From contig CAJNDT010002857.1 of NCBI GenBank assembly GCA_905221615.1, positions 62,001 through 126,000 on the forward strand: 64,000 bases of DNA, read 5' to 3'. Under the pieces are notes generated by a model that saw nothing but the letters and a program-made list of their open reading frames with translations, was not told where the DNA came from and made no database searches. The translations under genes were made by a program, and so were the position numbers. Source of the DNA: Symbiodinium sp. CCMP2592 (Eukaryota > Sar > Dinophyceae > Suessiales > Symbiodiniaceae). This document shows, in pieces, positions 13,561 through 60,770 of this stretch; the first letter of the stretch is position 1, and each line of letters starts with the position of its first letter.

Positions 13561-13880
13561 TGTATTATGCCACCGTAGACCCCCAAACAGTGAAGGAGCT
13601 CCCCGACGACCTTCACGACCACGACCACCTGGACCGCCAGGACCACCACGACGACCACTACTTCGACGATCGGTTGTTTAGTACTTGAGTAGCAAAGTTG
13701 AGGGAATTATACAAATGCGATAGTCATGGTTAGCAAGTTCGCTAAGTCATATTTAGTGGAGTTAATAAGACCTACATCTATAGTAGTTGCATTACAGTAA
13801 TTAGTACTTGTGTTGAAGCAGATACTGTTTGAATACAATGTAGGCTATCTGGATAGCATGGTTATGCTAGGACTTCCGTG

Positions 13881-13892
13881 AGTTAGCTAAGT
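13881..13892 (+). repeat. Left subterminal inverted word
   Basis: AGTTAGCTAAGT, an exact reverse complement of 26469-26480. Its core TTAGCTAA is itself palindromic. The neighbouring AGTTATGTGT at 13960-13969 is inverted at 26448-26457. Confidence 0.6.
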
Positions 13893-13997
13893 CCAAACCA
13901 GCACAGATAGTGGAGATAGGATAAACATTCTATGTCACATGTGTACTTGTGCTAAGTGCAGTTATGTGTAGAATATATGCATGTCTAAGAACAGCAT

Positions 13998-16680
13998 ATG
14001 TCAGAAATCCGCATGAAAATGGCACACCAAAAGCACCATGCTCGCAAGCCCTCTTTTGCATGGTGGATTGGTGTGGCTGCCGACTCCCGGGATGTTCCTT
14101 CGGTCGAAGACCTCAGTCTAGAAAGAGGCCGTATCGAAACAGAGGAGGGTCCAACAAAGTTTGAAGGACCCACGGTCCACGATCTTGGGCCAAAATGGCA
14201 GAGCCATTTTGGCAGACGTCTCCTGACATAAGTCTTGCAAGTCGGCAAGCCTTGGTAGCAAGTAACTATTTATCATGTCCAAACAGCACATTATTGTTTG
14301 AATGCCACGGACATTGCTGTGTTTGCAGACTTCAGAATCATTTTTTTTGATGATTGCCTCAAACATATCTTCATGATTGTAGCAGCTCGCCGGCATTTTT
14401 AGCCTGGCAGGGCTTATTTTTGCATAGAAACCCATGGACTGTTTTTTGCAGCTTCTGGCTGAAGACTTTGTTTGTTTTGGAACCGACATTTCCCGATGTC
14501 GCTGACACACGAAGTGTCGCAGCAGATCCAAGCGATTTTGGATTCCTCGTGAAGTCGGTGCAAGAGCTCTTTGGGCTCCTTCGCAAAGCTGGCCTCATGA
14601 CCAGCATGACCTTGCCACCCCTTTCTGTTGGAGTGCATCCACAGAACCGTGATGGGATTATGCTCAACCAACAAGACTGCCATGAGCTGTTAGACTCCAT
14701 AGCCCAGGTGGGCTTCGTGCCAACCAGGGTCGAAGCCATAGGTGTGGAGGTGTGCAACGAGCAAGAGAGGTCGTACAACGTCCAGCTGTGCACGGCAGCA
14801 GCGGGGAATCTGGGCTCGATGGACCCGGGGGCCCTGAAGATCCTCAGTCTCACTGCCTCTCACACGAATTTTGCACTCAGGCTGGTCGCCAGTGCGGCAC
14901 CGCATGTTTCTGACACGTTGTCAGTGAACGGAATCCTCAGCCTCGAACAAGTTCGTCTGCGAGATCCTGTGCTGGCCCAGCATGTGGAGCAGGGGCTGAC
15001 ATGGAATGTCATTGCCAAAGAAGTGGCAGTGGCCCATCCTGCTGTACTTCAGCTCGTGCAAGCCAGCCAGAATGCGACATTACAGAAATCGGAGAGCGAG
15101 ATGCAGTTGCTGAGGAGGGTCTTTAGCTTGTGCAGTCGCGAGAACCCTCCAAACTTCCAGCAGGTCAAGAGCATGGCCCTGAACTCAAAACCCCCGTGTG
15201 CGGAGACATTTCCTGCTTTGTACACATTCGCACTTCGGTGGCTGGGCTTTGATATAGATGCTAAATGTTTCTCTTTATATAGGGATTTGGGTGCATGCAT
15301 GCATGTATGAGGTATTGCGGCGGCTCTGCGGGGAGATTTCTCCGTGAGACGGAGGTGTTCATTCGGAGTCAAGGCAATACCCGGTCTTTGGGCTTGGGGT
15401 TCTGGCAGCTGCTCGCCCAGGACTTCATGAAGGGGCAGCAGCAAGTTCCCCACATGAGGCATGCAATCCTCAAAGTTGCCTTGTCTGCTACTGGTTTGAC
15501 ACAGACCAATGCCAAGAAGATGTTTTCTCGGGATTGCAGCACCAAGATCTTGGAAGGAGAGAAAGTTCTGAAGGAGCTTCGCGAACTCGTCTCCAGTGCA
15601 GGCACTGACATCTTGCAGGATGTTCGTTTCGTCAACATTCTCGGCATCGTGGATATGACGGTGGCCAGGTTTTGCCTTGGACTTCAGGCAGAGGACAAAG
15701 ACACCGGCAAGGATTACAAGAGCATCCAAGGCATTGCTCACGATGCCACCATGGTCTTCGCAACCATAGGGGTGGAGTTGACTTCTCCGTGGCAAGCTTG
15801 TGCCGAAGCATCGAAGGGAGGGCAATCCTCTGCACAGGCAGCAACGGAGAGAATGAGGGAACTGAATGCCGACGGATCCTTGCGGAATGCATCAGAACTT
15901 CTTGCAGACAAGGGTTTCAAATTGCAGGCATTCGTCCGCCGAAAGGCAGACAAGCTAGAATGCAGAATCGATGCCTTCCAGGGCCAGCATGTGCATCTGA
16001 CCGAGCTCGGAAAGAAGGGAGTGATGAAAGTGCCTTTCGAGCAATTCATGGGTGGGGCCTGGGCTACATTCCAGCCCAGGAGTGAGCCTGAGATGATCGA
16101 GGACCTCAGTGTCTTCCACCCGTCGGAGTGCCATGACTTCCAGGCGGCTGTGGTCGTGGCATGCATTCAGAAGGAGCTGGCCACATTGACCGAGGATCAC
16201 AAGGATGTCCTATCGCAGCTATCCATGCAGCTCAAGCCGACGAAGGCCCTCGTGACCAAGGAGAAGTTCAATAAGGGGCAGCTCGTTCTGGTCCCATCTT
16301 CCTTCAAGATCGTGCAGAGGCCCACATCCCAAGGAGATTTGCCCAATGGTGTGAAGGTCCAGGTTGATTGGACTTTGGATGAGCGATCATTCTGGATTAC
16401 GGCATCCAACAGCATGCCGAAGGAAAGCGAGACCTTCCAAGTTGGTAGGTATTGTTTCGCTCCCTTCTTCATGGTGCCAGCTTCAGAAGAAGTCGATTCC
16501 GTGAACCTCGTCTTGTGCAATGCAAAAGCCAATGTCGCGAAGCTGTTGATCCCCATCTTGAAGAATACCCATGCAATCCCCAAAGGCACCTCGTTGCTGC
16601 AGGCCCCGATCAAGAAGGACAACAAGAGGGAGAACTTGGAGATGCCGAAGCCCGTGAAGCGGGTGAAAGGCAAGCACTGA
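13998..16680 (+). CDS. Element gene A: large uncharacterised protein (812 aa, 4 exons)
   Basis: Exons 13998-14217, 14329-14392, 14452-15237 and 15312-16680 join in frame to 813 codons including the stop. Introns are GT-AG (111 nt), GC-AG (59 nt) and GT-AG (74 nt). The last junction restores FALR followed by YCGGSAG across the stop-containing gap. The protein is mostly soluble, with segments such as LNQQDCHELLDSIAQVGF, LTASHTNFALRL and FLRETEVFIRSQG, and ends in a basic tail. I believe this family recurs in dinoflagellate predicted proteomes, but I know of no assigned function. ATGs at 14013 and 14019 are alternative starts; exons 1 and 2 are less certain than 3 and 4. It is the first gene of the putative transposon and may be a structural or accessory transposition factor (inference). 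Confidence 0.7.
15238..15311 (+). other. Intron of gene A (GT-AG, 74 nt)
   Basis: Starts GTGGCTGGG and ends ATGAG before GTATTGCGG. Removing it keeps a single reading frame through the whole of gene A. The intron carries a TGCATGCATGCATG run just before its acceptor. Confidence 0.8.
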
Positions 16681-16781
16681 GTGCATTTGACCGTGCCGGA
16701 GTTTTGGTGTCAGACAGAACGAGTTTTGGCGCACAGAGCTGTTGAAACGGGTTCGTGCATGCTCGGATGCCATCACCGCCC

Positions 16782-16806
16782 TGCAGGGCTGCAAGCTCGC
16801 AGGCAG
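16782..16806 (+). promoter_or_regulatory. Shared upstream motif, copy 1 (before gene B)
   Basis: Contains GCAGGGCTGCAAGCTCGC. Close copies sit before gene D (22171-22196) and gene E (24322-24348), and inverted after gene E (26348-26374). The function is unknown; promoter element, trans-splicing region or recombination site are all possible. Confidence 0.5.
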
Positions 16807-16942
16807 TTTCTGTGCAGATTGCATGCATGAGCTGATTCAAACCTGACATGAAACATGACATGTACCCTGCATGAACCCTGTGCTTCGAAGCTGGCAGAGA
16901 ACATTTCGAGCTTGTGTCTTTTGTGTATAGGATATCTCTGCC

Positions 16943-17539
16943 ATGGCTTTGACAGTGAAGATGCAGCGGGTCATTTCAGATGGCAAGCAAGATCTTGTGC
17001 TTCCTCAAAAAGAGGTGTCGGGCTTGGGGTTCGTTTGCTTGGAGAAGTGGAACCGGCAGCTCGTGAAGGTGCTGACAGGAAAGGCCCTGGACCTTAGGCC
17101 GGGAAAGGCTGCAGCATCCGGCAGTCTCAGCTCGAAGGTTTGGGGGGAGATCGTGAAGCAGCGACAGAATGTCGCCAACCAAAAGCTCCAGGAAGCCCTC
17201 GAGGTTGAGGTCAAAGATAATACTGCCAATGGTGCCCGAAAAAAGCCTAAGGCAGTGAGGGCAAACAGCAAGCACATGATTATGCTGCCAGAAGTGCTCG
17301 ACATCGAATGTCGCGAACATAGCCTCAAAGTCTTGACTGAGGGGATCAACACCCAGACCATTTGGATGCACTTCACAGAAGAGAACATCAACTGGTTCAA
17401 GAACGAGCTGGATACAGAGGAAGCGAAGCCTCGGGTGACACGACGATCCGGCAGCAAGAAGCGAGCCCGGGGTCACAGCAGCGACGAGGAGGCCGAGGAC
17501 GGCGAGGTTGTTGGGCAACAGAAGGACGAAGACTATTGA
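16943..17539 (+). CDS. Element gene B: 198-aa basic/acidic-tailed protein
   Basis: A single uninterrupted frame from the ATG at 16943 to TGA. The middle contains SKHMIMLPEVLDIECREHSL and a WMHFTEENINWFKNEL segment. The C-terminal 50 residues are a Lys/Arg cluster (RRSGSKKRARG) followed by an acidic stretch (SSDEEAEDGE), typical of nuclear or chromatin-associated proteins. I recognise no named domain, but the layout resembles a small protein family seen repeatedly in dinoflagellates. It starts 262 bases after gene A on the same strand, and the shared motif lies 136 bases before its ATG. A DNA- or protein-binding accessory role in transposition is an inference. Confidence 0.7.
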   Translation: MALTVKMQRVISDGKQDLVLPQKEVSGLGFVCLEKWNRQLVKVLTGKALDLRPGKAAASGSLSSKVWGEIVKQRQNVANQKLQEALEVEVKDNTANGARKKPKAVRANSKHMIMLPEVLDIECREHSLKVLTEGINTQTIWMHFTEENINWFKNELDTEEAKPRVTRRSGSKKRARGHSSDEEAEDGEVVGQQKDEDY

Positions 17540-18019
17540 TCGGCAGCATGTTTCCCATGTCTATATATTACATAGACGATTTTGAGGGGCCACTTTGCAT
17601 TCTTGCGAGGGAAAGAAGAAATGTGGTATACAGCTTTGCTTCTTGCCATATCATACAATGAATGATGGATGCCTTTTCTATACACACACACATGTAGCAT
17701 GTTTGAATATACATATGACACGGGGAAAGGGAAAGTGTTCCAAATCGCAGGGGTGAAAGAAGGGGCAGGAGAAAGAGACGGTTACGAGAGAGTGTATGCT
17801 TTTGTTGCTTGCGTTGTCACTGCTTCCTGCATTTGCCGCCCCGCATGCACGAAGGCTCTCGCAACAGCATGTGCACGTGCACAGGAGGATGCATGCAGCA
17901 GGCATACAGCCAGTGAGGATGCATGCAGCAGGCATACAGCCACCGATGCATGCATGTCCAAGTATAGGGCTTAGGAGGCCTTCGGGGTTTAGGGCTTCAG
18001 CTGTCGAAGCGACATAGCC
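17540..18019 (+). other. Spacer between genes B and C with short repeats
   Basis: Holds a 30-bp tandem duplication (17885-17944), several TGCATGCA words and TTTAGGG-like pieces at 17966-17996. No coding exon is supported. Confidence 0.5.
17885..17942 (+). repeat. Two-copy 30-bp tandem repeat
   Basis: GAGGATGCATGCAGCAGGCA begins at 17885 and again at 17915, nearly identical over the unit. It contains the palindromic core TGCATGCA. Confidence 0.8.
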
Positions 18020-20155
18020 ATGGCTTGCTATCGCCTCTTTTTCAATGGAATGCCCGAGGCATGTCTGCTGCACTGCATGCCCTACATATTTGTAAAAACC
18101 CCTAAACCCTCAACCCTATATGCAGGCAGCGGAGCACGACTTGCAAGCTTCGATCGGAGACCTCTTCACGAAGGCGACGGCCACAGGGGTTGTGCACTTC
18201 TCCAGGTTGAAACTTTGCAGTCTGTGCATTGGACGAAGGACAATAAGAAGAAGTGGAGGTGGCTTTCGGGGCCGGCTGCAAGGCCTTGGGGAAGGCTGAG
18301 GTGGACCAAAGCAGGTGGGGTGCATGTGCTGACCATGCATGGAGAGAAATGATTTTTTTGGTCCAGGCTGGCACGTGGACAAGATGGGGGACTCCGAGGA
18401 GGTGCTCTCCATCTGGTTCAATGCCTCGAAGTCCGTGGAGCCTCCTGAGAAAGGCCTGTGTGAACTTCAACATACACCCAGCAACCCAACACACCGATCA
18501 GGCTGGAAGTTCTGGTGCTCCAAGAAGGGCCGGTACAGGAACAGCCAAATCTACTTCGAGGACCTTGGATGTGTGTCTGAAGTATTTCGGATGGAACATG
18601 CAGTGTTGTTGTATACAGGAAGTCAGATCCGGCGAGGAGCCAGCCGAGGCACTCGATCGTTACAATGGTTCTTCTTGTCACCCGATGTGGTGTGAAGAGG
18701 CTTCGGGCTCGAAGCCTCCTCCGGAGCCGAAGGGCTCGCCTCCTCATGAGGTCGAGGCCTTGGCGGTCATGGTTCCATTGATGCTGTTTCCCATGATGGT
18801 TCTTGATGTACATTTATATATAAGGTCTCTGGCCATGATGAGGAGTTCCAGGCTGGAGTGGCCACGGAAAATGGAATTTGTTTTGTGTGCTGTCTGCGAC
18901 AGGACCCATGGGCGGATCAAGATGATGAAGAAGCCCGTTTGGGAGGGGAGGAGGTGCCACATTGTATACATATTGATATTATACCCAAAGTATTGTGACT
19001 GCAGGAGGAAGCGGAGCAGCACTTCCACGAGGATCAGGTGCTGCATTCTTTTCCTTAAAAGGAAGCAAAGGTTCAGCTCGATGTTGAGTGCAGGAGCTTT
19101 TGATGGACCCGGAGCCTGCCTTGGAGGAGGACCAAGTGCTGCTTTGTTTTTAGAAAGGAAGCACAGGTGCAGTTCGATGTTGTGTGCACGTGCAGGAGCT
19201 CATCGGGCCGATCATCCACGAGGATGATGACGAGCAGGTGCTGCATAGATTTCACACAAGGAGCATAGCTTCAGGCATTGTGTGTGTGTGTTCACGGAGG
19301 AAGAAGTTGCAGTGGATCCGCTGCCCGAAAGGACAGAGGTTCGCAAACACAGAAAGAAGTGAGAACCCATGCAGTTATGATTCGTTGGCCTTTGTGTTGT
19401 TCAGACTGCTGTCGATCTCACGGGCGAGCACAAGGCGAGGGAAACACTCACCATTAAGATTTTCGTCTGTGGCCGGTGTGCAGGCTGTGGTGCCTGCTGC
19501 CAAGGATGACCCCTTCAAGGCCAATGAAGACACGAACCGCCGGAGTGAAGCAGCCCTTCTGTTATTGTCCTGCTGCAGGCTTTGACTGTGCAGGCGGGGA
19601 AGCCGCCGACCAAAGCCAGGCTCCAATGACTTCAAAGCTCGCTCTGGCATGCATGGACTTGCTTGTTTCAGGTCGCTACGGTGGAGATCGCTTCCGGGAA
19701 AGCTCCATGGGCAGTCAAGAAAGCCACCCCGGTGCAGGGCAGACAGATTCATGGCTTTCTTGATGAGAATGGAGTTCTTTGGCCGCCTGGCAGCGGAAGG
19801 CACTTGCAGGGTTGAGGGTGTCTTCTTTTTCTAGGGTTTATGGACCCTGCCCCGACTGCCGACAGGATCCGGTCGAGAAGCCGTGGTGGCCAGAGGGTCA
19901 ACGGCCAGGAGTTCAAGGCCATCAGCACGATGGCTCAGACCCTCACGAACCAGGCCTCCTTCTCCACATGTCTCCCTCTCCCCTCCTTCTCTGCTCCTGC
20001 TGCATCTGTGGCTTTGGGGTTTGTGCTTCCTTGCTTCCTGGCAGACTGAGCTCCAACGGGAGATGCTGGGCTTCCAGAGGGAGATGTTTGCCTCGCAGGC
20101 TTCGAGCTCTTCCCAGGGCGAGGTCTGCGACATTGCTCTGTTCGAAGTACATTGA
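18020..20155 (+). CDS. Element gene C: 17-exon gene, 375-aa Trp-rich/acidic/coiled-coil protein
   Basis: Exons: 18020-18058, 18126-18173, 18221-18314, 18367-18453, 18502-18572, 18619-18750, 18903-18953, 19005-19037, 19094-19135, 19196-19237, 19300-19338, 19405-19434, 19484-19519, 19579-19614, 19672-19789, 19835-19953 and 20045-20155. All phases agree and the sum is 376 codons including the stop. Of 16 introns, 8 are GT-AG and 8 GC-AG, mostly 45-70 nt. The protein starts MACYRLFFNGMPE, then has a Trp/Lys-rich block (WTKDNKKKWRWLSG, GWKFWCSKKGRYRNSQIYF), an acidic repeat block (EEAEQHFHEDQ, ELLMDPEPALEEDQ, ELIGPIIHEDDDEQ), a Lys/Pro-rich part, RIRSRSRGGQR, and a short helical tail (ELQREMLGFQREMFASQ). 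No named family recognised. The start codon is a choice; earlier exons are possible. Confidence 0.65.
19005..19299 (+). repeat. Tandem duplication of exon plus intron within gene C
   Basis: Three consecutive exons start GAG, encode short acidic peptides, end in CAG or CAA, and are followed by introns that begin GTGCTGC. The first two of these introns share AAGGAAGC and the TTC(A/G)ATGTTG words before the acceptor. The unit is therefore exon plus intron, about 90-104 bp, repeated three times and diverged. Confidence 0.7.
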
Positions 20156-20254
20156 GAGCCCCAAACACCCGACAGGACAAGTGGAAGAACACTGTCACGT
20201 GGAGCCGGCGATGGTGAACCTCCACAAGGACTCTGTTGTGCTTCGGGAACACAA

Positions 20255-20417
20255 GTTTATCGATCTATAAACTCTCGGAGTTCGGGGGGGGCAAGGGTTT
20301 ATCGATCTATAAACTTCTGTCCCGGCCTTCTCTCTTATAAGGAGGACGAGACCAAGGGTTTATCGATCGATAAACTCCCGGGTATCATCGGGGCCAAGAG
20401 TTTGTAGATCGATAAAC
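20255..20417 (+). repeat. Four spaced copies of an 18-bp palindrome
   Basis: GTTTATCGATCTATAAAC at 20255-20272 and 20297-20314, the perfect palindrome GTTTATCGATCGATAAAC at 20358-20375, and GTTTGTAGATCGATAAAC at 20400-20417. Starts are 42, 61 and 42 bases apart, each preceded by a CAAG or CCAAG word, with GC-rich spacers. This resembles an iteron or operator cluster for a dimeric DNA-binding protein. It begins 100 bases after the stop of gene C. Confidence 0.85.
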
Positions 20418-20419
20418 TC

Positions 20420-21036
20420 GTGGTTGCATCGGTCGTGGTGTCATCCAGGGGCTTTTGCCTCTGCTGTCCCGATTGCAGGATGCTGGGCATCCACATGGGC
20501 CGGATGATCGTGCCGGCTTTTTATCTCCAGGCACGGACCGGAGATGATGTGATTTTGTGTCGGCTGGCGGTTGGCACCCTGTGGCAGGCCCATGCACTCT
20601 GAGCTCGGCTGCAACAGTGCCGGGAGCCTGGAAGAAGCAGGCAGCCAGAACAGGCACAACACAGCAACTCACACACCAGATCTTCCACAGCACACAGCAC
20701 ACACAGCAGCAGGGCGAGAGCCACAAACCAACACACAAACACAAACATATACAGCACGGCTGCCGATCATCTTCCAGGTGGCCCCAAATCCCTGTAGATG
20801 TACCTTGCAAGGTACCTGAAATTGGCCCCGGACCCCGGCCAGTTGTAGTCGTTCGACGGAGACACAGTTTGACCGGCTTCAGCTGAAAATGGCGATTTCG
20901 GCGGTTGTGCGCTGAGAGCTGCTTGCTCGGTTCCATGTACTGAAGACTTGTGACAGTTGTGTCCTTGAGGTCAGAAACATGTTCCATGTATCGACATAAT
21001 ATGCATATATATAGTCATGAATCGTTATATGAATGT

Positions 21037-21077
<41 letters not shown>

Positions 21078-21759
21078 TATGTATATATATATATGTATAT
21101 ATACATATATATATATATTTATATATACACATATACATATACCTGTGTATATACACACATGTAGGACAAAACAACAAAAGAAACAAGCAAACCTTTTTTG
21201 ACCATTGCACCAAACAGAGAAACCAAAAAGAGAAACAACATCATGAGCAAAAACAACAATGCACGTGTGCCTGCGAGCACAAGTGCCCTGCAAGGCCAAA
21301 ACACACAAAGGCAAAGACTCGAATTGCCAGGCGAGGACACACACACACACACACACGACAACAACCCTCCTCGGCCCGGCAAAGCCCACCTTTACTGTGC
21401 TTTGCTTCCTGTCCTGCTCGTCGTGATAAATGTATATGTATTCTTTTACATATATACATGTATATATATATATATATATACATATGTGTATATACACATA
21501 TTATTTGGTGTTGTATGTTGTTTTATACATTGCACATATTCGTATCTCCCAGCTATAGGTTTTACTTGTTCATGTACATTTATTATGTGTATATATATAT
21601 ATATCACAAGTCTGTCTCAGGTATCATCTGTAATGATTACTTTGTGTGGCCTCTCATTTCTTACATCTAAAATATAATGCTGTATATATATATATATATA
21701 TATCTACACACATTATATATGCCATAGTATATACATATATACAAGTGCATATGCATCAG

Positions 21760-21801
<42 letters not shown>

Positions 21802-22170
21802 TATATATATACACATATATATACATGTATTGGTACACATATTTCTGGTTGTGTCTATATATGCTTCTATACGCATATACTATATATATATATATATATA
21901 TACACGACACATCTATATGTCGAAACACCATGCACCCACCCCATCCCACCCCAACCCTCCACCCATGCACAGCATGCACACCGGCATGCATGGGGCATTG
22001 TTTGTATGTGAGGAACATGCACTGCCAGGCGAGCACAATGCCACCATTGCATGATTGTGAAGCATGGATGTTGCCCTGCAATCTTGTGCATGGAGGAAGG
22101 GGCATCGATTTGCAGCATCCTGTTGTTGTACTCTGAATGCATGAGGCTTGGCTCTGTTTTCACATTATCG
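20420..22170. other. Spacer between genes C and D, rich in microsatellites
   Basis: No supported gene. It includes AT/TATA runs at about 21040-21120, 21453-21482, 21588-21605, 21683-21708 and 21880-21902, a (CT)n run at 21765-21797 and a (CA)n run at 21338-21355. Open frames here are produced by the alternating repeats. Confidence 0.6.
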
Positions 22171-22196
22171 CCAGCAGGGCTTCTAGCTCGCTGGCA
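22171..22196 (+). promoter_or_regulatory. Shared upstream motif, copy 2 (before gene D)
   Basis: CCAGCAGGGCTTCTAGCTCG begins the site and CTGGCA closes it; the gene D ATG follows 20 bases later. Confidence 0.5.
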
Positions 22197-22215
22197 GCTC
22201 GTGTGTGTCTCGAAC

Positions 22216-23892
22216 ATGGCAGCTTCAACCGCCGTGGACCAATTCAAGGGCGACCTCTCGGCGACCATCAAGTTCCTGGGGAGCATGTCTTCCATGCCCA
22301 ACTATGAGTCGATTCGCCAGATCCAAGCTGATGCCCTCACGAAGCGAGCTGCAGGGCTTTGCCTCGACCCTGAGGCAGGGGCAGCACTGGCCGATTCGTG
22401 GAGCACCGGCCCATGGTCTGTTGACCAAACCAAAGCCTTTTCTGAAGTGCTGGCCAAGGGTGTCAGTGCAACAAGTGGGAGCAAAGGCAGCAAGAATCGC
22501 AGGGAGAATCAAATGTGCAGCAGCTTCGAGTCCTACCTGAGCGAGAAGGACGTGGAAGTGCTGACTTCTGATTCCAGCATCCACATCAAGATCGACACTG
22601 CAGCAAGCAGGTGCTGCCGATTGAGGCTCACATTGCCCTCAGAGCAATGTGTGAAAAGTATCCTGGCCGCCATCGCTGCAAGATCCGGTGGCACATGCAC
22701 TGAAGCCGAGCTCTTTCTCCAGGTGGCGGAGTTCAAAAGAGTGCTTCGTCTCAAAGCGAAGAAAGTCCCAAAAGAAGGGATTCACATTGAAACCCATCCG
22801 GTTGGTGGGCCTCGTGAGCTACCGGATGTTTTGTTCAAGGCGGCCTACGATGCCGAGGATGGACCGGTTAGCACTCTGCTGCCTGCTGGGCAGGTGGCAC
22901 TCAAAGCCATGGACATTTCGCTGAGACCGACGAACAAGAAGGTGAGAGGCATCTTTGCCACACCGAAGGCGAGCACTGCCATGGTGCCTGCAAATTCTAT
23001 GCCGATGCCTGGCATGCACATGGCTGGCATGAACATGATGGTTAACCCCTACATGCAGGGAATGATGGGCATGCATGGCATGCCAAATGCTTCGTCCATG
23101 CAGGGCCTCATGCAATGGATGAAGCAGCAGCAAGATTTGGTGCAGCAGGGAGGGTTGCAGAACCTCCAGATCTTCGCTCCCGGCACGGGGTCCTCTTCGG
23201 GATCGCAACAGCCGCCATCTTCTTCGACACCGGCATGTGCACAGCAGCTATGTTCTTCGACACAGGCACAGCAGCCATCTTCTTCGACACAGGCACAGCA
23301 GCCATCTTCTTCGCCACAGGCACAGCAGCCATCTTTGCCATGTTCCGGCCAGAACGGAGAAAGCGGCATCGAGACAAAGCCTGCAGACCCCTTCGCCTTC
23401 CAGCTCGACACAACTCAGGCCCTAGAGGAAGCTACCAAAGTGTCCGATGCATTGGACAACCGCAAGACTGGAGGCCAGGGCAAGCGAACGGCTGACGAGT
23501 TCGAGGGAGTTGCCAAGCCGAAGGGGAAAGCTAAGGCTAAAGCAAAAGCTAAGGCCAAGGCTAAAAGTGAGTCCAAGCCGAAAGCAAAGGCCCAGCCCAA
23601 GGCAAAGGCCCAGCCCAAGGCAAAAGCCCAGCCCAAGGGCATCTTGAAGAAGCCTTCAGCCCATGCTGCCGGCAAAAAGTATTGGCAAAAAGTATTGGGC
23701 CTCGCTCCCCCTCGCGAAGCGAGTCTTGTTGAGGCCACACGGTTGCTCCAAATGCAGGTCCAAACCGGGCTGCTGCCCAAGCTGTTTCTAAACCCGTTTT
23801 GCCACGAGGGACAAGAAAATGTTCCCTCAGTTCCGCCATTTGTGCATCTTCGTCCAGCAACATCAAGCATGCCTGCAGATGGGTCTGCGTGA
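22216..23892 (+). CDS. Element gene D: 558-aa Met/Gln-rich protein with Lys-Ala repeat tail
   Basis: Single exon; the ATG at 22216 is chosen because the shared motif ends 20 bases before it, although the frame is open further upstream. Residues 1-260 form a mixed alpha/beta-like region without a recognised family. Residues about 262-305 are Met-rich (MPMPGMHMAGMNMM), then comes WMKQQQ. Residues 329-375 are Ser/Gln/Pro repeats from a 27-bp DNA repeat. Residues 435-475 are Lys-Ala and KAQPKA repeats like histone H1 tails. This suggests a nucleic-acid- or chromatin-binding protein with a disordered C-terminal half (inference). It is 470 bases upstream of the transposase gene on the same strand, so a DNA-compacting or end-binding role in transposition is possible but unproven. 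Confidence 0.7.
   Translation: MAASTAVDQFKGDLSATIKFLGSMSSMPNYESIRQIQADALTKRAAGLCLDPEAGAALADSWSTGPWSVDQTKAFSEVLAKGVSATSGSKGSKNRRENQMCSSFESYLSEKDVEVLTSDSSIHIKIDTAASRCCRLRLTLPSEQCVKSILAAIAARSGGTCTEAELFLQVAEFKRVLRLKAKKVPKEGIHIETHPVGGPRELPDVLFKAAYDAEDGPVSTLLPAGQVALKAMDISLRPTNKKVRGIFATPKASTAMVPANSMPMPGMHMAGMNMMVNPYMQGMMGMHGMPNASSMQGLMQWMKQQQDLVQQGGLQNLQIFAPGTGSSSGSQQPPSSSTPACAQQLCSSTQAQQPSSSTQAQQPSSSPQAQQPSLPCSGQNGESGIETKPADPFAFQLDTTQALEEATKVSDALDNRKTGGQGKRTADEFEGVAKPKGKAKAKAKAKAKAKSESKPKAKAQPKAKAQPKAKAQPKGILKKPSAHAAGKKYWQKVLGLAPPREASLVEATRLLQMQVQTGLLPKLFLNPFCHEGQENVPSVPPFVHLRPATSSMPADGSA
23217..23338 (+). repeat. 27-bp coding minisatellite in gene D
   Basis: About four copies of a unit containing TTCTTCGACACAGGCACAGC, keeping frame and encoding Ser-Ser-Thr/Pro-Gln-Ala-Gln-Gln-Pro-Ser. 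Confidence 0.85.
23583..23636 (+). repeat. 18-bp coding repeat (KAKAQP) in gene D
   Basis: Three tandem copies of GCAAAGGCCCAGCCCAAG with single-base changes, next to a Lys-Ala run at 23520-23570. Confidence 0.85.
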
Positions 23893-24321
23893 GCATGATC
23901 GCGAGCCGAGACAAAAACATGCAGATTGCATGCCTTTGGCCGGAGCGAATGCATGCATGCACATATCGACATGAGAGTTGCTTCGTCAGCCGTGCATGTG
24001 GATTTGTTTGCAAAGCTGGATCTGTGCCAGGCCATGTAGTCAGATCTCATGAAGCTGCTTTGACACCTTATGCCATTCCAGGACTTAAGGGTTATCGTTT
24101 TGGGTTAAGTTATATAGGGTTGAGAGCTTATGTGTATGGGTTTTAGTGTTAAGGTTTTAAGGTTTATGGATTTAGGGTTTATAAATAAATAAATATAGAA
24201 CATAGATAGATATAGGGAAGGGAAGCCTCAATACAGGTAATTATATGTCCTTCGCAAAATTGCTCGTAGTTATAAAAGCCGAGAGCATGATATTATACAG
24301 ATTTTCATTGGGGCCCATCAA
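23893..24321 (+). other. Spacer between genes D and E
   Basis: No gene. It contains ATGCATGCATGC at 23948 and a degenerate telomere-like block (TTAAGGGTT, ATTTAGGGTTT and similar) at 24086-24181, then an AT-rich stretch with an AAAT run. Confidence 0.6.
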
Positions 24322-24348
24322 GCCGGCAGGGCTGCAAGCTCGCCGGCA
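24322..24348 (+). promoter_or_regulatory. Shared upstream motif, copy 3 (before gene E)
   Basis: GCCGGCAGGGCTGCAAGCTC continuing into GCCGGCA, ending 14 bases before the gene E ATG. The outer GCCGGC parts form an inverted pair around the core. Confidence 0.55.
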
Positions 24349-24362
24349 TTCAGAAACTAGCC

Positions 24363-26336
24363 ATGTCGTTGGACGTGGCCAGCTTGGGTCGGAAGCATTA
24401 TGTGAGCCAGAGTGGTTTAGCAGCTGTTTTGAAGGAGGTTTCCGAATCGTCTTCCACAGTGGCACCTTCCAGATCAGGCATCAAAAGAGCCAGAGAGGAA
24501 CAGGTCGCCATCGACACACCATATGGCGCTTTGATCGACAATATGCAGATCAAAGACAAGAAGGGAAAGGAACGGAGTTTCCCAACATTGAACCTGAAAG
24601 CCTGGATGTGGTACGTCGTCAAGAACCTGCTTGTTAGTTTTTTCAGCAGGAAGTTCCTGGAACACCCGCCCAAGGCAAACACACCTTGGCGGGTGTGTTT
24701 ATATTGTGATGAGATATCACCGGGCAACCAACTAAAGCAGCAAAACACACGGAAGATCCAAGCCTACTACCTTTCCTTCCATGAATTCGGGGCGGAGTTC
24801 CGTTGCCAAGAACAAATGTGGTTCACGGTGGCTTTGGCGAGGTCCCATCTGGTGAACCAACTTCCTGGCGGCCTCTCGCAGTTCACCCACCACCTCCTGC
24901 AAGCACTGAAGCTTGAGGACTTCGAGCATGGTTTGCTTCTGGACTCGGGCGGTGAACGAGTTATGTTCTTCGCCAAACTGGACACCATGGTGGCAGATGA
25001 AGCTGCCTTGAAGGCAGTCTTTGATGTGAAGGGCTCCTCGGGGACACTACCATGTCCTTTGTGCTCCAATGTTGTTGCCAAGACGAGCATGCTGGAAGGC
25101 TGTGACACAACTGGGACACTGGTACCTGTGCACGAAACTGCTCTGGAGAAGTTTTGTGCAAGAACGGACAATACCATCTGGCAGGGCTGCAGGTTACTGC
25201 AAAGCCGATGTGGCCAAGTCTCCAAGAAGGCTTTTGAGCAGCTGGAGCAGTCACTGGGGATGAACCATAACCCAGATGGTGTCCTGTTCCATGGGAGTTT
25301 GCCTTTGGCCTCCACTTTGATGTACGACTGGCTACACTGTTACTTGGTAGCAGGACTGATGCACGTGGAGCTGGGGCTTTTGTTCCCCATACTCTATACC
25401 CACGGTGTGACAGTGGAAAGTCTGAAAGACTGGATGTGTTCCTTCGAATGGCCCTACGGCTTGAGGACACACCGCAACGAGACACTGAGGAGTTTCGACA
25501 AGAGAATTCCCCCTGGCGAGCTCAAGTGTAGTGCCTCTCAAGGTCTGAACCTGTACCCATTGCTGCGACTTTTCTTGCTCAGTCTTGCAACAGGAAGCAT
25601 TCCAGATTTACTGGCAAAGGCGATGACCAGTTGTTTGAATTTGTTTCTCGTCCTGGATCTCTTGCTTAAAGAGAACCGGGGAGAGCAGGTGCCACCAGAC
25701 GACTTGGAGGCCGCCATCCTCAAACACTGCCGGGCATTTCTTAGTGCATATGGCTCCGAGCATGTTGTGCCTAAATTCCACTATAGCCTGCACCTTGGCG
25801 CTTTTGCTCGAAAGAAACCGCTGATTTCCTGCTTCACTCACGAAAGAAAGCATCGCCAAATCAAACAGCTGGCAAACGAGATTCACAACCCTGGAGACTG
25901 GTTTGAGAAATCCGTCTTCAGAGACGTGTGGGGCGAAGTGATCCTGCAGATGCAAGCGGACTCTTTCAGTCTGCAGCCCCATCTGCTGTCACCCAAGAAA
26001 GCTACGATCTCTTTGCAGGCCATGTTGAATGCAAACTTCGGCGATCGAGCATGCGGTGCGACTGTTTCCTTTCAGGCCGTTTGCAGGCCGGGCCAGAGCT
26101 GCGAGAAAGGTGATCTCGTGCTGCTTTCTTCTGGTGATGTGGTCCAAGTGTGGCTGCATTGCCGCCTGTATGACGGGGACATGTGCACTTTGTGTAGCAT
26201 TCTGAAGCCTCTGGGTAAGAATCGCTTCCTCCTGGACGATTCCACGGCTCGGTTTATTCCGAGTGTCCACATCCAGAGGGCATGCTACTATAAGAAGTGT
26301 CCCAAGGATGGCGAGGTCATGGTCACTCCTGCCTAA
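24363..26336 (+). CDS. Element gene E: TNP2/Plavaka-like DDE transposase (657 aa)
   Basis: Single exon from ATG 24363 to TAA 26336. The order of motifs fits a CACTA-superfamily RNase-H-fold transposase. A first acidic position lies in LYCDEISPGN (Asp116). A CPLC knuckle (Cys231, Cys234) follows VKGSSGTL. MYDWLHCYLVAGL gives Asp322, and KFHYSLHLGAF followed by SCFTHERKHRQIK gives Glu494. TNP2 and Plavaka transposases share the CPxC insertion and the KxHxxxH...E pattern near the last acid. This is motif-level recognition, not an alignment; assignment of the three catalytic acids is inferred. No stop or frameshift is seen, so the gene may be intact. Upstream motif copy 3 ends just before its ATG, and an inverted copy lies 12 bases after its stop. 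Confidence 0.65.
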   Translation: MSLDVASLGRKHYVSQSGLAAVLKEVSESSSTVAPSRSGIKRAREEQVAIDTPYGALIDNMQIKDKKGKERSFPTLNLKAWMWYVVKNLLVSFFSRKFLEHPPKANTPWRVCLYCDEISPGNQLKQQNTRKIQAYYLSFHEFGAEFRCQEQMWFTVALARSHLVNQLPGGLSQFTHHLLQALKLEDFEHGLLLDSGGERVMFFAKLDTMVADEAALKAVFDVKGSSGTLPCPLCSNVVAKTSMLEGCDTTGTLVPVHETALEKFCARTDNTIWQGCRLLQSRCGQVSKKAFEQLEQSLGMNHNPDGVLFHGSLPLASTLMYDWLHCYLVAGLMHVELGLLFPILYTHGVTVESLKDWMCSFEWPYGLRTHRNETLRSFDKRIPPGELKCSASQGLNLYPLLRLFLLSLATGSIPDLLAKAMTSCLNLFLVLDLLLKENRGEQVPPDDLEAAILKHCRAFLSAYGSEHVVPKFHYSLHLGAFARKKPLISCFTHERKHRQIKQLANEIHNPGDWFEKSVFRDVWGEVILQMQADSFSLQPHLLSPKKATISLQAMLNANFGDRACGATVSFQAVCRPGQSCEKGDLVLLSSGDVVQVWLHCRLYDGDMCTLCSILKPLGKNRFLLDDSTARFIPSVHIQRACYYKKCPKDGEVMVTPA

Positions 26337-26347
26337 GAAAAAATCTG

Positions 26348-26374
26348 CATGGCGAGCTTGTAGCCCTGCCTGCG
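26348..26374 (-). promoter_or_regulatory. Shared motif, inverted copy (after gene E)
   Basis: Read on the minus strand it contains GGCAGGGCTACAAGCTCGCC, 19 of 20 bases identical to the copy before gene E. Confidence 0.6.
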
Positions 26375-26447
26375 AGTCTATTGAGATTGTGCATACACAC
26401 TCACAGTTATATGCACTCATATATAGAAACACCTATACATAACTCCG

Positions 26448-26480
26448 ACACATAACTCCGCTATGTGTACTTAGCTAACT
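26448..26480 (-). repeat. Right subterminal inverted words
   Basis: Contains ACACATAACT (26448-26457) and ACTTAGCTAACT (26469-26480), the reverse complements of two left-end words in mirrored order. More AGTTA-type words follow toward 26530. Confidence 0.6.
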
Positions 26481-26577
26481 ACACTACTCTACATATCGTA
26501 AGTGTAACTATGACACTTTCCTAACTACATATACCTAACCTCGACAAGCCTGCTATTTATATACTAAGTGTGCTACT

Positions 26578-27900
26578 GGAGACCGCGAGGGGACTGCGAG
26601 GAGACCACGAGGAAACCACCAGGGACCGCCAAAAGCCAGAGCAGTCCACCAGCAAACCCCAGACAACCAAGACGACACGGCCACAGGAGCACCACCTTTG
26701 CTTCCCCAATCACGCCCAACATGCTTCTCCCGTGTACTGGCGCAATTCAGGACCACGATTCAGCGCAACAGCCAAAGTGCGTTGCCCACTTGCCCTTCCC
26801 CAGACAGTCGAGGTCGCAATTGTCTGTGCACATACGCGGCCAATCGTCACGAAAGATCCCTGGTAGCAAAAACGCTGGTCGCAAGAGACTGAAAGGTGGA
26901 ATCGATACTCAGGCGACAGAGGGACTCTGCTCCGTAGTCTGTCCTGCAGGAACCGCTGCTCATGCCGGTGTGGATCATAGAAACCTTTCCCGTACTTGTC
27001 ACAGTAGTCCCACCTGACACACCAAACCAGCGCACTGGGGAGCATGGTTCCCGACCCAGCTCTATGAAGCTTGCTTGAACCAGAGAAGTCCGAGGATGCT
27101 GAATTTTGAAAAGCGGCCATCTTTCTTTGAAGCGCTTCGACTCCCGCTGACCTCGCTTGACCTGACTCCCATCTCAAGTGTAGACCCTGCATCCGAGCAT
27201 TAACATGCATTATCCTTGCCTGATCCGCGAGAACACCGCCCTTGGAACCTGTGTGACGAACACCATCCGTCACCAGCCCACTGTGCTGGCTTGGCATAAC
27301 TCGCCGGCCTTTGCTGCCGTCCCCGGGCTTCGCAGCACTGCCGGCCCTGTCAAAGATAGGCTGCCCAAAGGACTGGCAGAGTGCTGCTTGAGTATGGGCA
27401 TGTGAGAGGCAGAGGAATCAATGAAACGTTCCTACGCCGGTCCTACTATGTTGATTGCCCTAAACTCAAAACGAAGGGAAACTAAAAGTGGATCTTGACA
27501 CCGCTTTCACTATAGCAAGGCACAAAGATCCGCGAAACTTTTCGTTGGCCTGCGCTGCCGCCCGAGTTCAGGCATGTCACGACCGCAGAAAGCTGTGAGG
27601 CAGGAGTTTCGCAGTTGCATTCGATGCGAGCAAGAGCGAGTGACAGTGTGACCTGTAGGATTTCCGACCTCGCGGCTTCCTGCGGTGCAAGGCAGGGTGA
27701 GACTATATACATAGAAGTGCTGCAAACTTCAACCGATGTGCTAGTGCATCATTGCTGCGTACAGGTGAGAAAACGTGCCAGCTCTTACTGTGAAAGCAGA
27801 GCAAATGCTTCTTTCGCTGATGATCTTCGCATCTGAATCCTAGTATGCCGCTCTGCCTCACTGCTGCGCAATACTGTACCACCTGGAAGCCTGAAAACAA
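26578..27900. other. Right flank of the element, no assignable gene
   Basis: Begins with GACCRC-rich sequence (26578-26700) resembling the left flank at 13610-13660. After that there are only short open frames without motifs. Confidence 0.35.
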
Positions 27901-35900: not shown

Positions 35901-38900
35901 AGCTTGTTCACATCAGGATAAAACGACTTAAGCACCGCACGAGCAGTCAAATTGCTTGAAATTCCAATGTATCTCCAACGAGCAGTCAAATTGCTTGAAA
36001 TTCCAATGTATCTCCAATAAAGGAGCTCGAAACAAAACACTTAGGGGCATCTGAACCCCCATGGAGCCACCCTTTCTGCCCTCAGGCATGTGCCGTCGAA
36101 AACAGCATGATGTCTCTCTCGTACCCTGGATTAGGGTGTAGTTTAGAGCAGCCTTCACGAGCTTAATGGAGAAAACCCACACTTTCAAACCGCGAATCCT
36201 GTCATGACGAACTGCTACAACAGTGGAAAACAATCATCATCGCTGATGAAAATTGTTCGTGCGGCTTCGAAAGCGGCGACTCGCGGCACCAATACAGCGG
36301 CATTTCTCACGTTGGCCCGAATGCACGCAGATTGATTTGGAACATCAAGGATGCACGGTGGTGCGTTTGTTTATCAGGTGTGTCGGCGCTCTTGTGTACA
36401 CTGCGGCACTCCTGTGTCGGCTGTGGGTCTCTTCCATTCTCTGCTCTGGCGGTCGAAACTCCTGACTTCCCAAAACACTTAATCTTCTCAGGCTACGAGA
36501 CAGTCCGTCTGTCAGCAGCTGAGTGTGTTACCAGTGCTTGTTCCCAGGATCAGATTGTGATTCGCCGAGGCCTTTGCGCACGCTCAGCATCAAGCTGAGG
36601 CTTGGCAGCATTCTTGCTACAAACATTACTTAACTTCCCTCCCTCTTGCACCTGTTATGAATTACCTGGAATCACTGCATCTCGCACGTGGTTGCTGCTC
36701 CGTGTCCCTGTGAGGCAGCGGCGTCTGGTGACTCTGGCGGCATCTTGTAGGCGAGGGAGGCAGCTGAGGCAAACGCGTGTCTGGATGAGTGCAGCAGAAC
36801 ATGCGGAATGCACAACTTCAGCGGCCTGCCCTTGCCAAGCCAGAATTGGTTTAGTCAAGACAACGTTTGGCATCAACTTGGCTCCAAGCTGATTCCATAC
36901 TCGGCCAGACGCTTTTGGAGTCGGATGCCACCACTATCCTCGTCAAGCCAACTAGGACACATTGCTTGGGTGTCCGCATGTGGATGCAGTGTGTGGGCAC
37001 TTCTCCAGCTTTTCCAGAGCACAGTCAGCTCACAGCCAACTCGGTCGCACGTCTCTCTGGGTCGCAATGGCGGCCACTCCTTGAGAGTGTAGATGGTTTG
37101 CTCGCCCACCACCAGAATCTCCTAGCATATTGGTACCACTTCCAAACTGTGCACGAGCCATCGATTAGATCTTCCTGCTGATTCGCGGAGAGAGATCGGC
37201 TAAAGCGCACCACCTCGATACTCCGAGCCTGATGCAACAGCACAGTGTCGATTCTGGCATGATCAAGCTTGGACTAACTTGGGGACATGTCTTCTGCGCT
37301 GCTAAGGCTTGTGCATGCTCACCAATGTTCGTAGACCAGTCGACCTTCACCGTCGATTCCATTACAAAGAACTCGAGAATCTTGTCTGCAACGCTTGAAT
37401 GCGAAGAGCCGTGGAAAAGGAACTCTCGCAATGTAGAGCTAAAAGGCAACTTTGAGTGACCATGGGCACATGTTAAAAAAACTACATACACACACACTCT
37501 CTCTCTCTCACTCACTCACTCACTCACTCACACACACACACACACTGACTGATTCGGCCGAGAGTAGGAGTGCAGGAAGGGGAAGAGAGAGAGGCGGGAG
37601 AGAGGCACGTTGTCGTCGTCAAGTCGCGTCGTGAGGACGAGGTTCTTGTCCTGTATTGTCGTCAAATGCCACGTAGTAGGGATAATGGGTCCTGTCCGTG
37701 GCATTATAATGTGGGACAGGTTTCTGTCCCCGGAGCCAGACATAGAGAATGGCTGCCGCTGCCGCAGTCGAAGTGCGATGTCCGGGCAGGGCGTAAAACG
37801 TTCAAAATGCCAAGTAGTAGGGATTGGGTTCTGTCCCTGGCACATCGGGGATATGGTTTCCGTCCCCTTGCAGGTACGTTGCAGCACCTTGCTATCAGGC
37901 TCTTCGTTGGCCATTCCCTGATAGCAAGGCTGAATGGCCCCCTGCAAATGTCCACATGTGAAAAACAGAAGGAGTGACCCTCTGCTCCCATGCGCTAGGG
38001 AGGTTCACACACACACACACACACACAGCCCCGTCAGGGGCGTGTATTGAGAGAAGTTCAGAAAGAAAGAGACGAGAAAGAGAGGCCGATTACTTCCCGG
38101 CGGAAGCTGCAACCACTTGCATTAGACGACGGTTACTGCACCTGCACTCATGTCAGAAGCACATGCCCTTGCAGTCCCTGAGGAATAAAGAAGCGGTCGA
38201 ATAGAGGACAGACTAGCGAGGTAGTCCTGTGCATTAGCGGCCAGTAACTGCACTAGACGCCAGTTACTGCACCTGCACTCATGTCAGACTCACATGCGAG
38301 CATCAGAGAGAGAAGGTAATCATAAGAAGCATCGGGAGATCTGAACGGTCTGAACGAAGGCTGAACATCCGGTCTATCACCGGTTTCCCTTTCGGAGGAA
38401 CACCACGGCGCCATGACGGAAAGCCGCTGCTCAGGAGTCTCATGACCCACGATAGTCACACTGACTGATTCGGCCGAGAGTAGGAGTGCAGGAAGGGGAA
38501 GAGAGCGAGGCGGGAGAGAGGCACGTTGTCGTCGTCAAGTCGCGTCGTGAGGATGAGGTTCCTGTCCTCTATTGTCGTCAAATGCCACGTAGTAGGGATA
38601 ATGGGTCCTGTCCCTGGCATTATAATGTGGGATAGGTTTCTGTCCCCGGAGCCAGACATAGAGAATGGCTGCCGCTGCCGCGGTCGAAGTGCGATGTCCG
38701 GGCAGAGCGTAAAACGTTCAAAATGCCAAGTAGTAGGGATTGGGTTCTGTCCCTGGCACATCGGGGATATGGTTTCCGTCCCCCTGCAGGTACGTTGCAG
38801 CACCTTGCTATCAGGCTCTTCGTTGGCCATTCCCTGATAGCAAGGCCGAATGGCCCCCTGCAAATGTCCACATGTGAAAAACAGAAGGAGTGACCCTCTG

Positions 38901-41390: not shown

Positions 41391-41848
41391 TTGACAGACC
41401 ATGCCCTTTCAACTGAGTCGTAGTGCCTGGTCTGTCATCGGGGGGAGTCCGCACTCAGCCCTCAAAAACTCAACTCCAAAAATACGGAAATTTCCCAAAT
41501 TCTCTCCTCTAACTTTCCGGATATCCGAAATTTCCAAAATTTCCAAAAAGTCCGCCCTTCTGTGTTGGAAAAACACTGTCCACTAGGTCGGTAAAGTTCG
41601 GAAATTTTGGAAATTTCGGAAATTTCCAAAAAATCCGCCCTTATGTGTTGGAAAAACCCTGTCCACTAGGTCGGGCGGTTTGAAAAGTTTGGAAATTTCG
41701 GAAGTTTTGAAAATCTTGGGAAGTTTTGGAGATTTGGAAAATTTTGGAATTGTTGAAACTTTTGGAATTGATTTTTATGAAGGCTGATTAGACCCATCCG
41801 ATGACAGACCATACACTACGACTCACTTGCAAAGGCAAGGTCTGTCAA
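41391..41848. mobile_element. MITE-like element with compound 51-bp inverted ends
   Basis: The left end (41391-41441) and right end (41798-41848) are reverse complements over about 51 bases with a handful of mismatches. Shared parts include TTGACAGACC, TGAGTCGTAGTG and TGGTCTGTCATCGG. Each end is itself an inverted pair (TGACAGACCA with TGGTCTGTCA). The inside has no gene; it holds GGAAATTTC-type palindromic repeats and two copies of a 49-bp block. Confidence 0.75.
41543..41674. repeat. Two 49-bp internal repeats of the MITE-like element
   Basis: TCCGCCCTT(C/A)TGTGTTGG and CTGTCCACTAGGTCGG recur at 41543-41591 and 41626-41674, separated by GGAAATTTC-type repeats. Confidence 0.9.
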
Positions 41849-52039: not shown

Positions 52040-53030
52040 CTGGCCCTAACTACCGAACACACGCTCAGCCAAGCACAGAAGCCGCCACCCCACCACCCAA
52101 GCGCCAAAAACAGTGGCGGTATCCCATCATCCCCCAAATCCCAACTGCACACACCTCCATACATGCGCACGAAGCAAGCGAAAATCAGTCGCCGCATCCC
52201 CCAAACCCGTCCAAACCCTATCTGCACGCGCCAGCGAAGACTTTTAACCCTAAGCCCAAGCCCTCTTAACCCTATACCCCAGAGACCCTTTTAATTTCAA
52301 GTTTTTCCTTTTAACCCTAATCCCTAAATCCCGGTCCGTCTTAACCCAACCCGGACCCTTTTAACCTTAAACCTTACACCGCAAACCCCTCCTAACCCTA
52401 AACCCCAAATGCCTGACCCTCTTCACCACCCTCTTAACCCTAAACCTGTAACCTTTGATGAACCCCCAATCCTCTTTAACCCTAAACCCTTAAACCCCAG
52501 ACCTTTGTAACCGTTTTGACCCAACCCGGACCTTCTTCACCCTAAACCCCAAACCCCACATGCGCTCAAAGCCAGCGGAAAAAAACACGCACCACCGGAT
52601 CAGGGTGAAAGCCGGCGACAGTGACAATAGCCCACATCCCCCAAGCGCCAATTACACGGCCCACCGAACATACGCTCAAAGCCAGCGACAACTACACATG
52701 CCACCGAACATACATTCAAAGCTCGCGACCAAACACATCTGCCGCATCCCCCGAAACCTCAACCAGACACACCACCGAACACACGACAAAAACGGTAGCC
52801 ACATCCCCCAAGCCCCAATTACATCAATTACACGCACCGTCGAACATACGCTCAAACCAAGTGACAGCTACATGCACCACCGAACACAATCCCCAAATCG
52901 AGCGACCAAATCAGTAATCAGTAGCCGCATCCCCCCAATCCCAACTTCAGGCAATACCGAACACATGCTTAAAGCAAGCGACGAAAACAGTAGCCATGTC
53001 TCCCACACTCGACTACACACACCGAGAACG
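52040..53030. repeat. Degenerate satellite with CACCGAACATACGCTCAAAG units
   Basis: Units built from CACCGAACATACGCTCAAAG, GCAAGCGACAA and CCGCATCCCCCAAAC recur at variable spacing of about 40-110 bases. The array is split by a telomere-like block (52235-52560). A 208-bp part (52590-52797) recurs at 60559-60770. Confidence 0.8.
52235..52560 (-). repeat. Degenerate telomere-like CCCTAAA block
   Basis: Many variants of TTAACCCTAA, CCCTAAACCCC and TTTTAACCCT over about 325 bases. It fits an old internal telomere repeat rather than an active chromosome end. Confidence 0.75.
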
Positions 53031-60482: not shown

Positions 60483-60558
60483 CTATTTGTCGTTCTCGGC
60501 TTCGTTAGACATTACAAGCCATTAACATGTCGCCTGCTCCAACAAAAACACACACACA

Positions 60559-60770
60559 CACCACCGGATCAGGGTGAAAGCCAGCGACAGAGACAACTGC
60601 CCACATCGCCCAACCCCCAATTACACCGTCCACCGAACATACGCTCAAAGCCAGCGACAAGTACGCATGCCACCGAACATACGTTCAAATCTAGCGACCA
60701 AACACATTGGCCGCATCCCCCGAAACCCCAACCAGACACACCACCGAACACACGTTCAAGCGACAAAAAC
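60559..60770. repeat. Second copy of the 52.6-kb satellite segment
   Basis: Begins CACCACCGGATCAGGGTGAA, as at 52590, and keeps the same order of words through ACACCACCGAACACACG and GACAAAAAC, with roughly one difference per ten bases. Direct orientation, 8 kb apart. Confidence 0.9.

Follow-up and report, generated by a model that had tools for sequence, protein, structure and literature searches.

The CMCT clade of DDE transposons comprises EnSpm/CACTA, Mirage, Chapaev, Transib, Plavaka, ESTA and Lanisha; its description defines it by C(2)C and H(3-4)H motifs between the second D and the E, and gives termini of 5'-CA..TG-3' 'in most cases' and duplications of 2-5 bp (PMC12730594). Here we describe a block of four genes (A, C, D and E) in a 64,000-nucleotide stretch of DNA from the coral-symbiont alga Symbiodinium sp. 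CCMP2592, which was analysed as a whole and is called the window (contig CAJNDT010002857.1, C2857:62001-126000 of the 1.098-Gb assembly). The block is very probably one copy of an autonomous DNA transposon that moves by cut and paste with four genes of its own; its transposition activity is predicted from its sequence. Copies with identical, sharp ends are present at unrelated sites, as is expected of cut-and-paste movement, and the transposase frame is open in many near-identical copies.

The block resembles the CMCT clade in the three acidic residues of its transposase, its inverted repeats and its short target duplications. The 2-bp duplication lies within the described range of 2-5 bp, whereas the termini are CTT..AAG instead of the usual 5'-CA..TG-3'. 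Further differences are the lack of a sequence match to the Pfam models of the clade, a BAH domain, the number of genes and the presence of gene-associated hairpins. The original prediction had proposed a CACTA/TNP2 type of element; this fits as far as the CMCT clade, whose D-D-E, C(2)C and H(3-4)H signatures are present, but not more narrowly, since CAC termini and 3-bp duplications were not found. Plant Spm/En (CACTA) elements combine their DDE transposase with an accessory protein that binds DNA, and their subterminal sites are repeated. All three features have a counterpart here, the DNA-binding protein being a prediction, but the 5'-CAC..GTG-3' termini, the 3-bp duplication and the match to PF02992 that mark EnSpm/CACTA do not. 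Transib and RAG1 are characterised by a 5-bp duplication and CACWRTG-type ends. A scan for such heptamer ends with 5-bp duplications gave none that was convincing. The likeness to RAG1, Transib and ProtoRAG (BbRAGL) lies in the RAG1-core fold of the predicted structure of E; the identity of about 10%, the 2-bp duplication, the CTT..AAG ends and the C-terminal BAH domain set the block apart from them.

ESTA elements are described in the same source as fungal EnSpm-like transposons with TA duplications and an extra gene, a TET/JBP dioxygenase (PMC12730594). Compared with that description, and not with ESTA sequences, the block is similar in having a RAG1-like transposase, TA duplications and additional gene content, and differs in that 6/8 duplications are TA and 2/8 are TG. 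The termini given there for PlavakaA and PlavakaB (5'-TGT..ACA-3' or 5'-CATCA..TGATG-3') both differ from CTT..AAG, and the 8-bp duplication given for KDZ (Zisupton) contrasts with the 2 bp found here (PMC12730594). For S. microadriaticum introners, duplications of 4 bp are described (PMC9860276); because those of the present element are 2 bp, no link to introners is claimed.

Termini, target sites and gene order of the copies

The genome-wide search covered E, and the order of A, C and D is known from four copies. At least 72 match rows were obtained with E (a lower bound, with 67 of 734 candidates scored). By our own count, 38 rows start at residue 3 or before and end at residue 645 or beyond without a stop. 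Alignment of copies to define the exact ends, one of the checks proposed with the original prediction, recovered common sharp termini and 2-bp duplications in three subfamilies.

In the window copy, which belongs to subfamily 1, the left terminus is CTTCGACGATC at position 13661, directly preceded by the dinucleotide TA (13659..13660). The left terminal inverted repeat (CTTCGACGATCGG..., 13661..13692, plus strand) is where the homology of C4223, C754 and C4998 begins, three copies of which the left side was examined and whose flanks are unrelated. At the right side, 9/11 other loci of the same subfamily (L003-L013) continue for 28 bp past 26577 to ...GATCATCGAAG, after which the flanks are unrelated; in the remaining two, the homology of C4223 stops at 26482 and the stretch of C313 did not show the end. 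Since these nine loci run 28 bp further, the window copy is truncated at the right: its right subterminal region (26400..26577) is present, but it lacks the 28 bp of the genuine terminal inverted repeat on that side. The inverted words noticed earlier at the ends of the block (AGTAGCA, at 13688 and 26577) do exist, but they lie inside the true ends and were rejected as termini. An alignment of the two ends of the window copy with each other was suggestive only: with narrow ends the score of 31 equalled the best of 500 shuffles, and with wide ends a score of 37 was reached, against a maximum of 44 in 300 shuffles.

Subfamily 2 (E 49% identical) ends in ...CCTTAGAAG followed by TA in 12/12 loci; among these are two pairs with common flanks, which may have arisen by duplication of the region. 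Subfamily 3 (E 48% identical) ends in ...CTGCCAAG in 6/6 loci, with right flanks starting with TA in three loci, TG in one and CA in two. The terminal inverted repeats are CTTCGAYGATC at both ends in subfamily 1, CTTCTAAGGGCGG at both ends in subfamily 2, and CTTGAGAGGGCGGGG (left) and CTTGGCAGGGCGTGT (right) in subfamily 3. All eight two-ended copies (C754, C4998, C990, C1867, C366, C5101, C222 and C4874) had the same dinucleotide on both sides, TA in six and TG in two. A search for an empty site yielded one related unoccupied site: when the flanks of C222 are joined, they align with contig C3613 right through the junction, at 74% identity, without a gap at that point and with a single TA. 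The complex multi-gene cut-and-paste element originally proposed is thus supported by shared exact ends, 2-bp target duplications and this unoccupied site.

Three further observations concern the insertion sites. With termini of 5'-CTT...AAG-3', insertion in either orientation sets a 3'-terminal AG against the flank. Judged by eye, the C222 insertion (left flank L042 1-1100) seems to lie within the integrase reading frame of a retrotransposon, which would be one mobile element inside another. C5101 (L023, L049) and C3458 (L031) adjoin CTACCA/TACTAC simple repeats, which fits a preference for TA targets.

Gene order was kept, on the same strand, in four copies of three subfamilies, the window copy included. 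The original prediction was to fall if homologues of the other genes were missing beside E elsewhere or if copies had no ends in common; in the four copies examined it withstood this test. C4998, of the same subfamily as the window copy, contains A, C, D and E in order, with A and D frameshifted, and is 96.7% identical to window positions 14269-26511 over 12.3 kb; a stretch of about 268 bp of the window copy (14000..14269) was absent from C4998 and C4223 in the alignments. In C222 (subfamily 2), A is followed by C (40% identity), D (34%) and E (48%), all on the plus strand. In C4874 (subfamily 3) the stretch searched contains A (37%), C (46%) and D (35%) and runs into the beginning of E, the rest of which is found in L030. 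Between C and D each copy has a gap of several kb without a recognised gene, and TA-rich microsatellites occur in the window, C4998 and C222.

Over the stretches that were compared, identity was 97.6-98.9% in subfamily 1 (4 copies), 97.7-99.7% in subfamily 2 (11 loci) and 99.1-99.97% in subfamily 3 (6 loci). This high identity between copies indicates that movement was recent.

Gene content and the predicted transposase

The open reading frames listed for the window in this region (14354-15310, 15295-16680, 16943-17539, 22051-23892 and 24363-26336) are all on the plus strand, which bears out the predicted co-orientation. They were originally counted as five genes; four were found. Relatives of the first two frames (P0053-P0057) are single proteins of about 700 amino acids that read through both, so the two frames (14354-15310 and 15295-16680) represent exons of a single gene, A (14497..16680, plus strand), with an intron at about 15238-15307 and about 700 amino acids in relatives. 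The first two genes of the original prediction would accordingly be paired with gene A of the present list. Judged against its relatives, A of the window carries a frameshift near 14.54 kb. Gene C (16943-17539, plus strand) encodes 198 amino acids with a charged C-terminus, is kept in C4998, C222 and C4874, and has 7 homologues at E-values up to 0.01. The spacer between C and D (17540..22165) has no recognised gene and contains (TA)n microsatellites and one weak match, on the minus strand, to the hairpin discussed below.

Gene D (22216..23892, plus strand; 558 amino acids) encodes an N-terminal domain, a Met/Gln-rich middle part and a basic tail rich in Lys and Ala. Its homologues upstream of E are the ones 34% identical in C222 and 35% identical in C4874. 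In five gene models (P0001, P0003, P0004, P0039 and P0049) E is fused with a protein resembling D; this was the earliest hint of a connection between the two genes. Gene E (24363..26336, plus strand; 657 amino acids) encodes a predicted RAG1/Transib-like DDE transposase with a C-terminal BAH domain. Pfam searches with the single A, C, D and E proteins gave only matches below the curated cut-offs, and an Rfam search of the block gave 19 matches, all far below the gathering score and most of them within the TA microsatellites.

The transposase part of E covers residues ~14-541 and the BAH domain residues ~537-651. In an alignment of 25 E sequences D116 and E494 were invariant and D212 was nearly so, in agreement with the DDE layout proposed earlier; C231xxC234 and H473xxxH477 are situated between the second D and the E, where the definition of the CMCT clade places them. 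The predicted structure of E matches the RAG1-core fold, with about 10% identity to RAG1, and its putative catalytic residues are predicted to lie on an RNase-H fold, as in that clade. No CACTA transposase was among the PDB structure matches listed, nor was a KDZ chain, which carries no weight as evidence; although RAG1 is the nearest match, E may be more closely related to a different lineage of the CMCT clade. A PDB sequence search with E gave two matches, at E-values of 1 and 2.2. Among the candidates scored, E had at least 50 homologues at E-values up to 0.001, and the minority of rows that carry an organism name are from the dinoflagellates Symbiodinium or Effrenium. No relative of E was found in GTDB prokaryote contigs. 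When 40 relatives of E were compared with Pfam at E-values up to 1, 18 families were matched, and Transposase_21 (PF02992) was not one of them. The best matches in the member tables, which give no cut-offs (E-values of 0.042 and 0.0075), were to non-transposase families, with a single member each.

From these data the following mechanism can be proposed. E would act as the transposase, a DDE enzyme of the CMCT clade with an RNase-H fold, that cuts at the 5'-CTT...AAG-3' inverted repeats and inserts mostly at TA or TG dinucleotides, which are then duplicated. Catalysis would be performed by D116, D212 and E494, with C231, C234, H473 and H477 as a putative zinc site. The BAH domain may target E, or tether it, to modified chromatin; D may be a DNA- or chromatin-binding partner by means of its basic Lys-Ala tail, and A and C further accessory proteins. 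The hairpin could be the element's own recognition signal, linking the ends and the genes to one element-encoded protein.

Several observations weigh against an autonomous, mobile element. The copy in the window has lost its right end and has a frameshifted A, and is therefore probably unable to move by itself. Two loci of subfamily 3 (L025 and L028) share one right flank that begins with CA, which is neither TA nor TG, and C5101 (TA/TA) lies inside a simple repeat, so that its duplication is ambiguous. For 2/7 subfamily 2 copies tried (C1001 and C5350) the left end was outside the examined stretch, and the unoccupied site in C3613 is a 74%-identical paralogue and not an allele. The AlphaFold model of A, made from 6 sequences, had a predicted local distance difference test score (pLDDT) of 38, and the only transposase-type Pfam family matched by the 40 relatives of E was DUF1258, by one member at an E-value of 0.16.

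Four conserved genes are unusual for a DDE transposon and might instead point to a domesticated or viral gene cluster. We consider this highly improbable, in view of the sharp ends that recur, with duplications of 2 bp, at sites unrelated to each other. In addition, relatives of E were found neither in phage records nor in IMG/VR viral contigs, no relative of A was found in IMG/VR viral contigs, and the E model had no significant match among predicted viral structures. Mobility confined to E, with A, C and D as host genes next to one copy by chance, is even less credible. It might be read from public-database matches of A and C that by eye seemed to be on contigs other than those of E (except for the C match P0060, whose contig, to judge by its length, is C5119, which holds an E copy). 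It is refuted for the four copies examined, as all four genes keep their order upstream of the same right ends in the window copy and in one copy of each of the three subfamilies (C4998, C222 and C4874).

The recurrent hairpin

The motif CCxGCAGGGCTNNNAGCTCGCx'GG, in which x and x' covary, occurs three times in the window, upstream of C (16780..16805), D (22171..22196) and E (24323..24348), all on the plus strand; none was expected in shuffles. An inverted hairpin follows E (26342..26380, minus strand), and an inside-out version lies upstream of A (14384..14414, plus strand), which is also found before A in C4998 and, in two copies, in C222. A covariance model was built from four window sites, the three that precede C, D and E and the inverted one that follows E. 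Over 109 kb it gave 29 matches at E-values up to 1, with 19 rows at 0.005 or below. Four of these rows had built the model, four were their counterparts in C4998 and one site was counted twice (overlap of L043 and L030), leaving 10 distinct sites in subfamilies 2 and 3. These include, in both subfamilies, the sites that precede C, D and E and, in subfamily 3, the inverted one behind E; in subfamily 2 there are two inverted sites at that position, with E-values of 0.011 and 0.031. The spacer match in the window (21268-21294, minus strand) had an E-value of 0.13, and the single match in the window outside the block one of 0.33.

In 25 distinct rows 95.9% of the cells pair, and 22 two-sided changes were counted, against a mean of 4.6 in shuffles and at most 4 in slid structures. 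The loop varies in length, the paired bases covary, and a bulged A and a G-U pair are mostly kept. When sites were folded singly, 2/5 window sites were clearly stabler than shuffles (z about -3.5) and the other three were not. These figures should be read with the knowledge that the window sites themselves built the model and that the alignment was fitted to its own structure, which favours pairing; the weakest rows may be chance. A single viral-contig match to an 18-mer was taken as chance.

Two readings of the hairpin remain. As a double-stranded DNA site, it would be bound by an element protein (e.g. D or A) that regulates promoters and pairs the ends, comparable to the TnpA sites of Spm/En, which regulate promoters and help to pair the two ends. 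This we give somewhat less than an even chance. The copies upstream of genes, the inverted copy near the right end and the basic Lys-Ala-rich tail of D are in line with it; the variable distance between the half-sites (about 5 to 8 bases) and the inside-out copies before A are awkward for a dimer on duplex DNA. Alternatively, the hairpin may be an RNA signal, namely a spliced-leader trans-splice acceptor (GCAG followed by GGC) before the genes, by which one long transcript would become several capped mRNAs. It was suggested by three public gene models (P0001, P0003 and P0004) with a splice acceptor between GCAG and GGCTGCAAG, exactly inside the hairpin before E. In each of the three subfamilies a hairpin lies ahead of the start codon of C, of D and of E, and the variable loop, the covarying pairs and the kept bulged A and G-U pair fit a folded strand. 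However, the inverted copies after E and the copies on both strands in the spacer without a recognised gene do not suit an RNA signal, and in the three models, which are predictions, D and E are connected through an ordinary intron instead of a leader. We regard the RNA signal as possible but rather doubtful.

Equally tentative is our suggestion that the transposon represents a RAG1-like DDE lineage at superfamily level, in which a four-protein machine reads a folded hairpin before the genes and inverted near the right end, and so couples gene expression (perhaps via spliced-leader trans-splicing) to recognition of the element.

In the open-licence PMC text searched (titles and the starts of abstracts; Repbase was not covered), no paper announcing this element and no report of a multi-gene autonomous DNA transposon from dinoflagellates was found. 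Dinoflagellates have large genomes and unusual gene regulation. The exact ends and recent copies make genome-wide annotation feasible, in which it can be asked which short elements the transposon mobilises. RAG2 has a PHD finger, and a RAG1-like core with a BAH reader would independently exemplify the coupling of a RAG-type recombinase to a domain that reads chromatin. The kept order of four genes and the covarying hairpins offer a testable system for the expression of a multi-gene element in a trans-splicing nucleus, and the element could seed a transformation tool for coral symbionts.

Flanks and the rest of the window

The original prediction was correct in orientation, transposase, end words and flanks, and had to be revised for gene number and exact ends. 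The GACCRC-rich flanks are clusters directly outside the block, at 13617-13653 and 26581-26624. These are the only two such clusters (3 or more in 60 bp) in the 64 kb, both on the plus strand and none on the minus strand, as if the element had inserted into one GACC-rich tract.

The original prediction placed the host genes on the minus strand. A Pfam analysis of this strand, covering 1-13.5 kb and 26.7-40.2 kb, recognised a single family there, ABC1 kinase (at about 2.7-2.9 kb). Here, fragments of an ABC1 atypical kinase gene are present in two frames (2700-2900, minus strand), a host gene upstream of the element. Repeats were found downstream: a 487-bp direct repeat (37541-38027 and 38457-38943) with 97.5% identity, which points to a recent local duplication, and a 201-bp dispersed repeat (52585-52785 and 60554-60754) with 91% identity. 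Finally, a stretch of 0.46 kb (41391-41848) can be aligned with its reverse complement at 68%, contains a tandem repeat of 83 bp and borders an AT-rich region (GC 0.32 in 42-44 kb).

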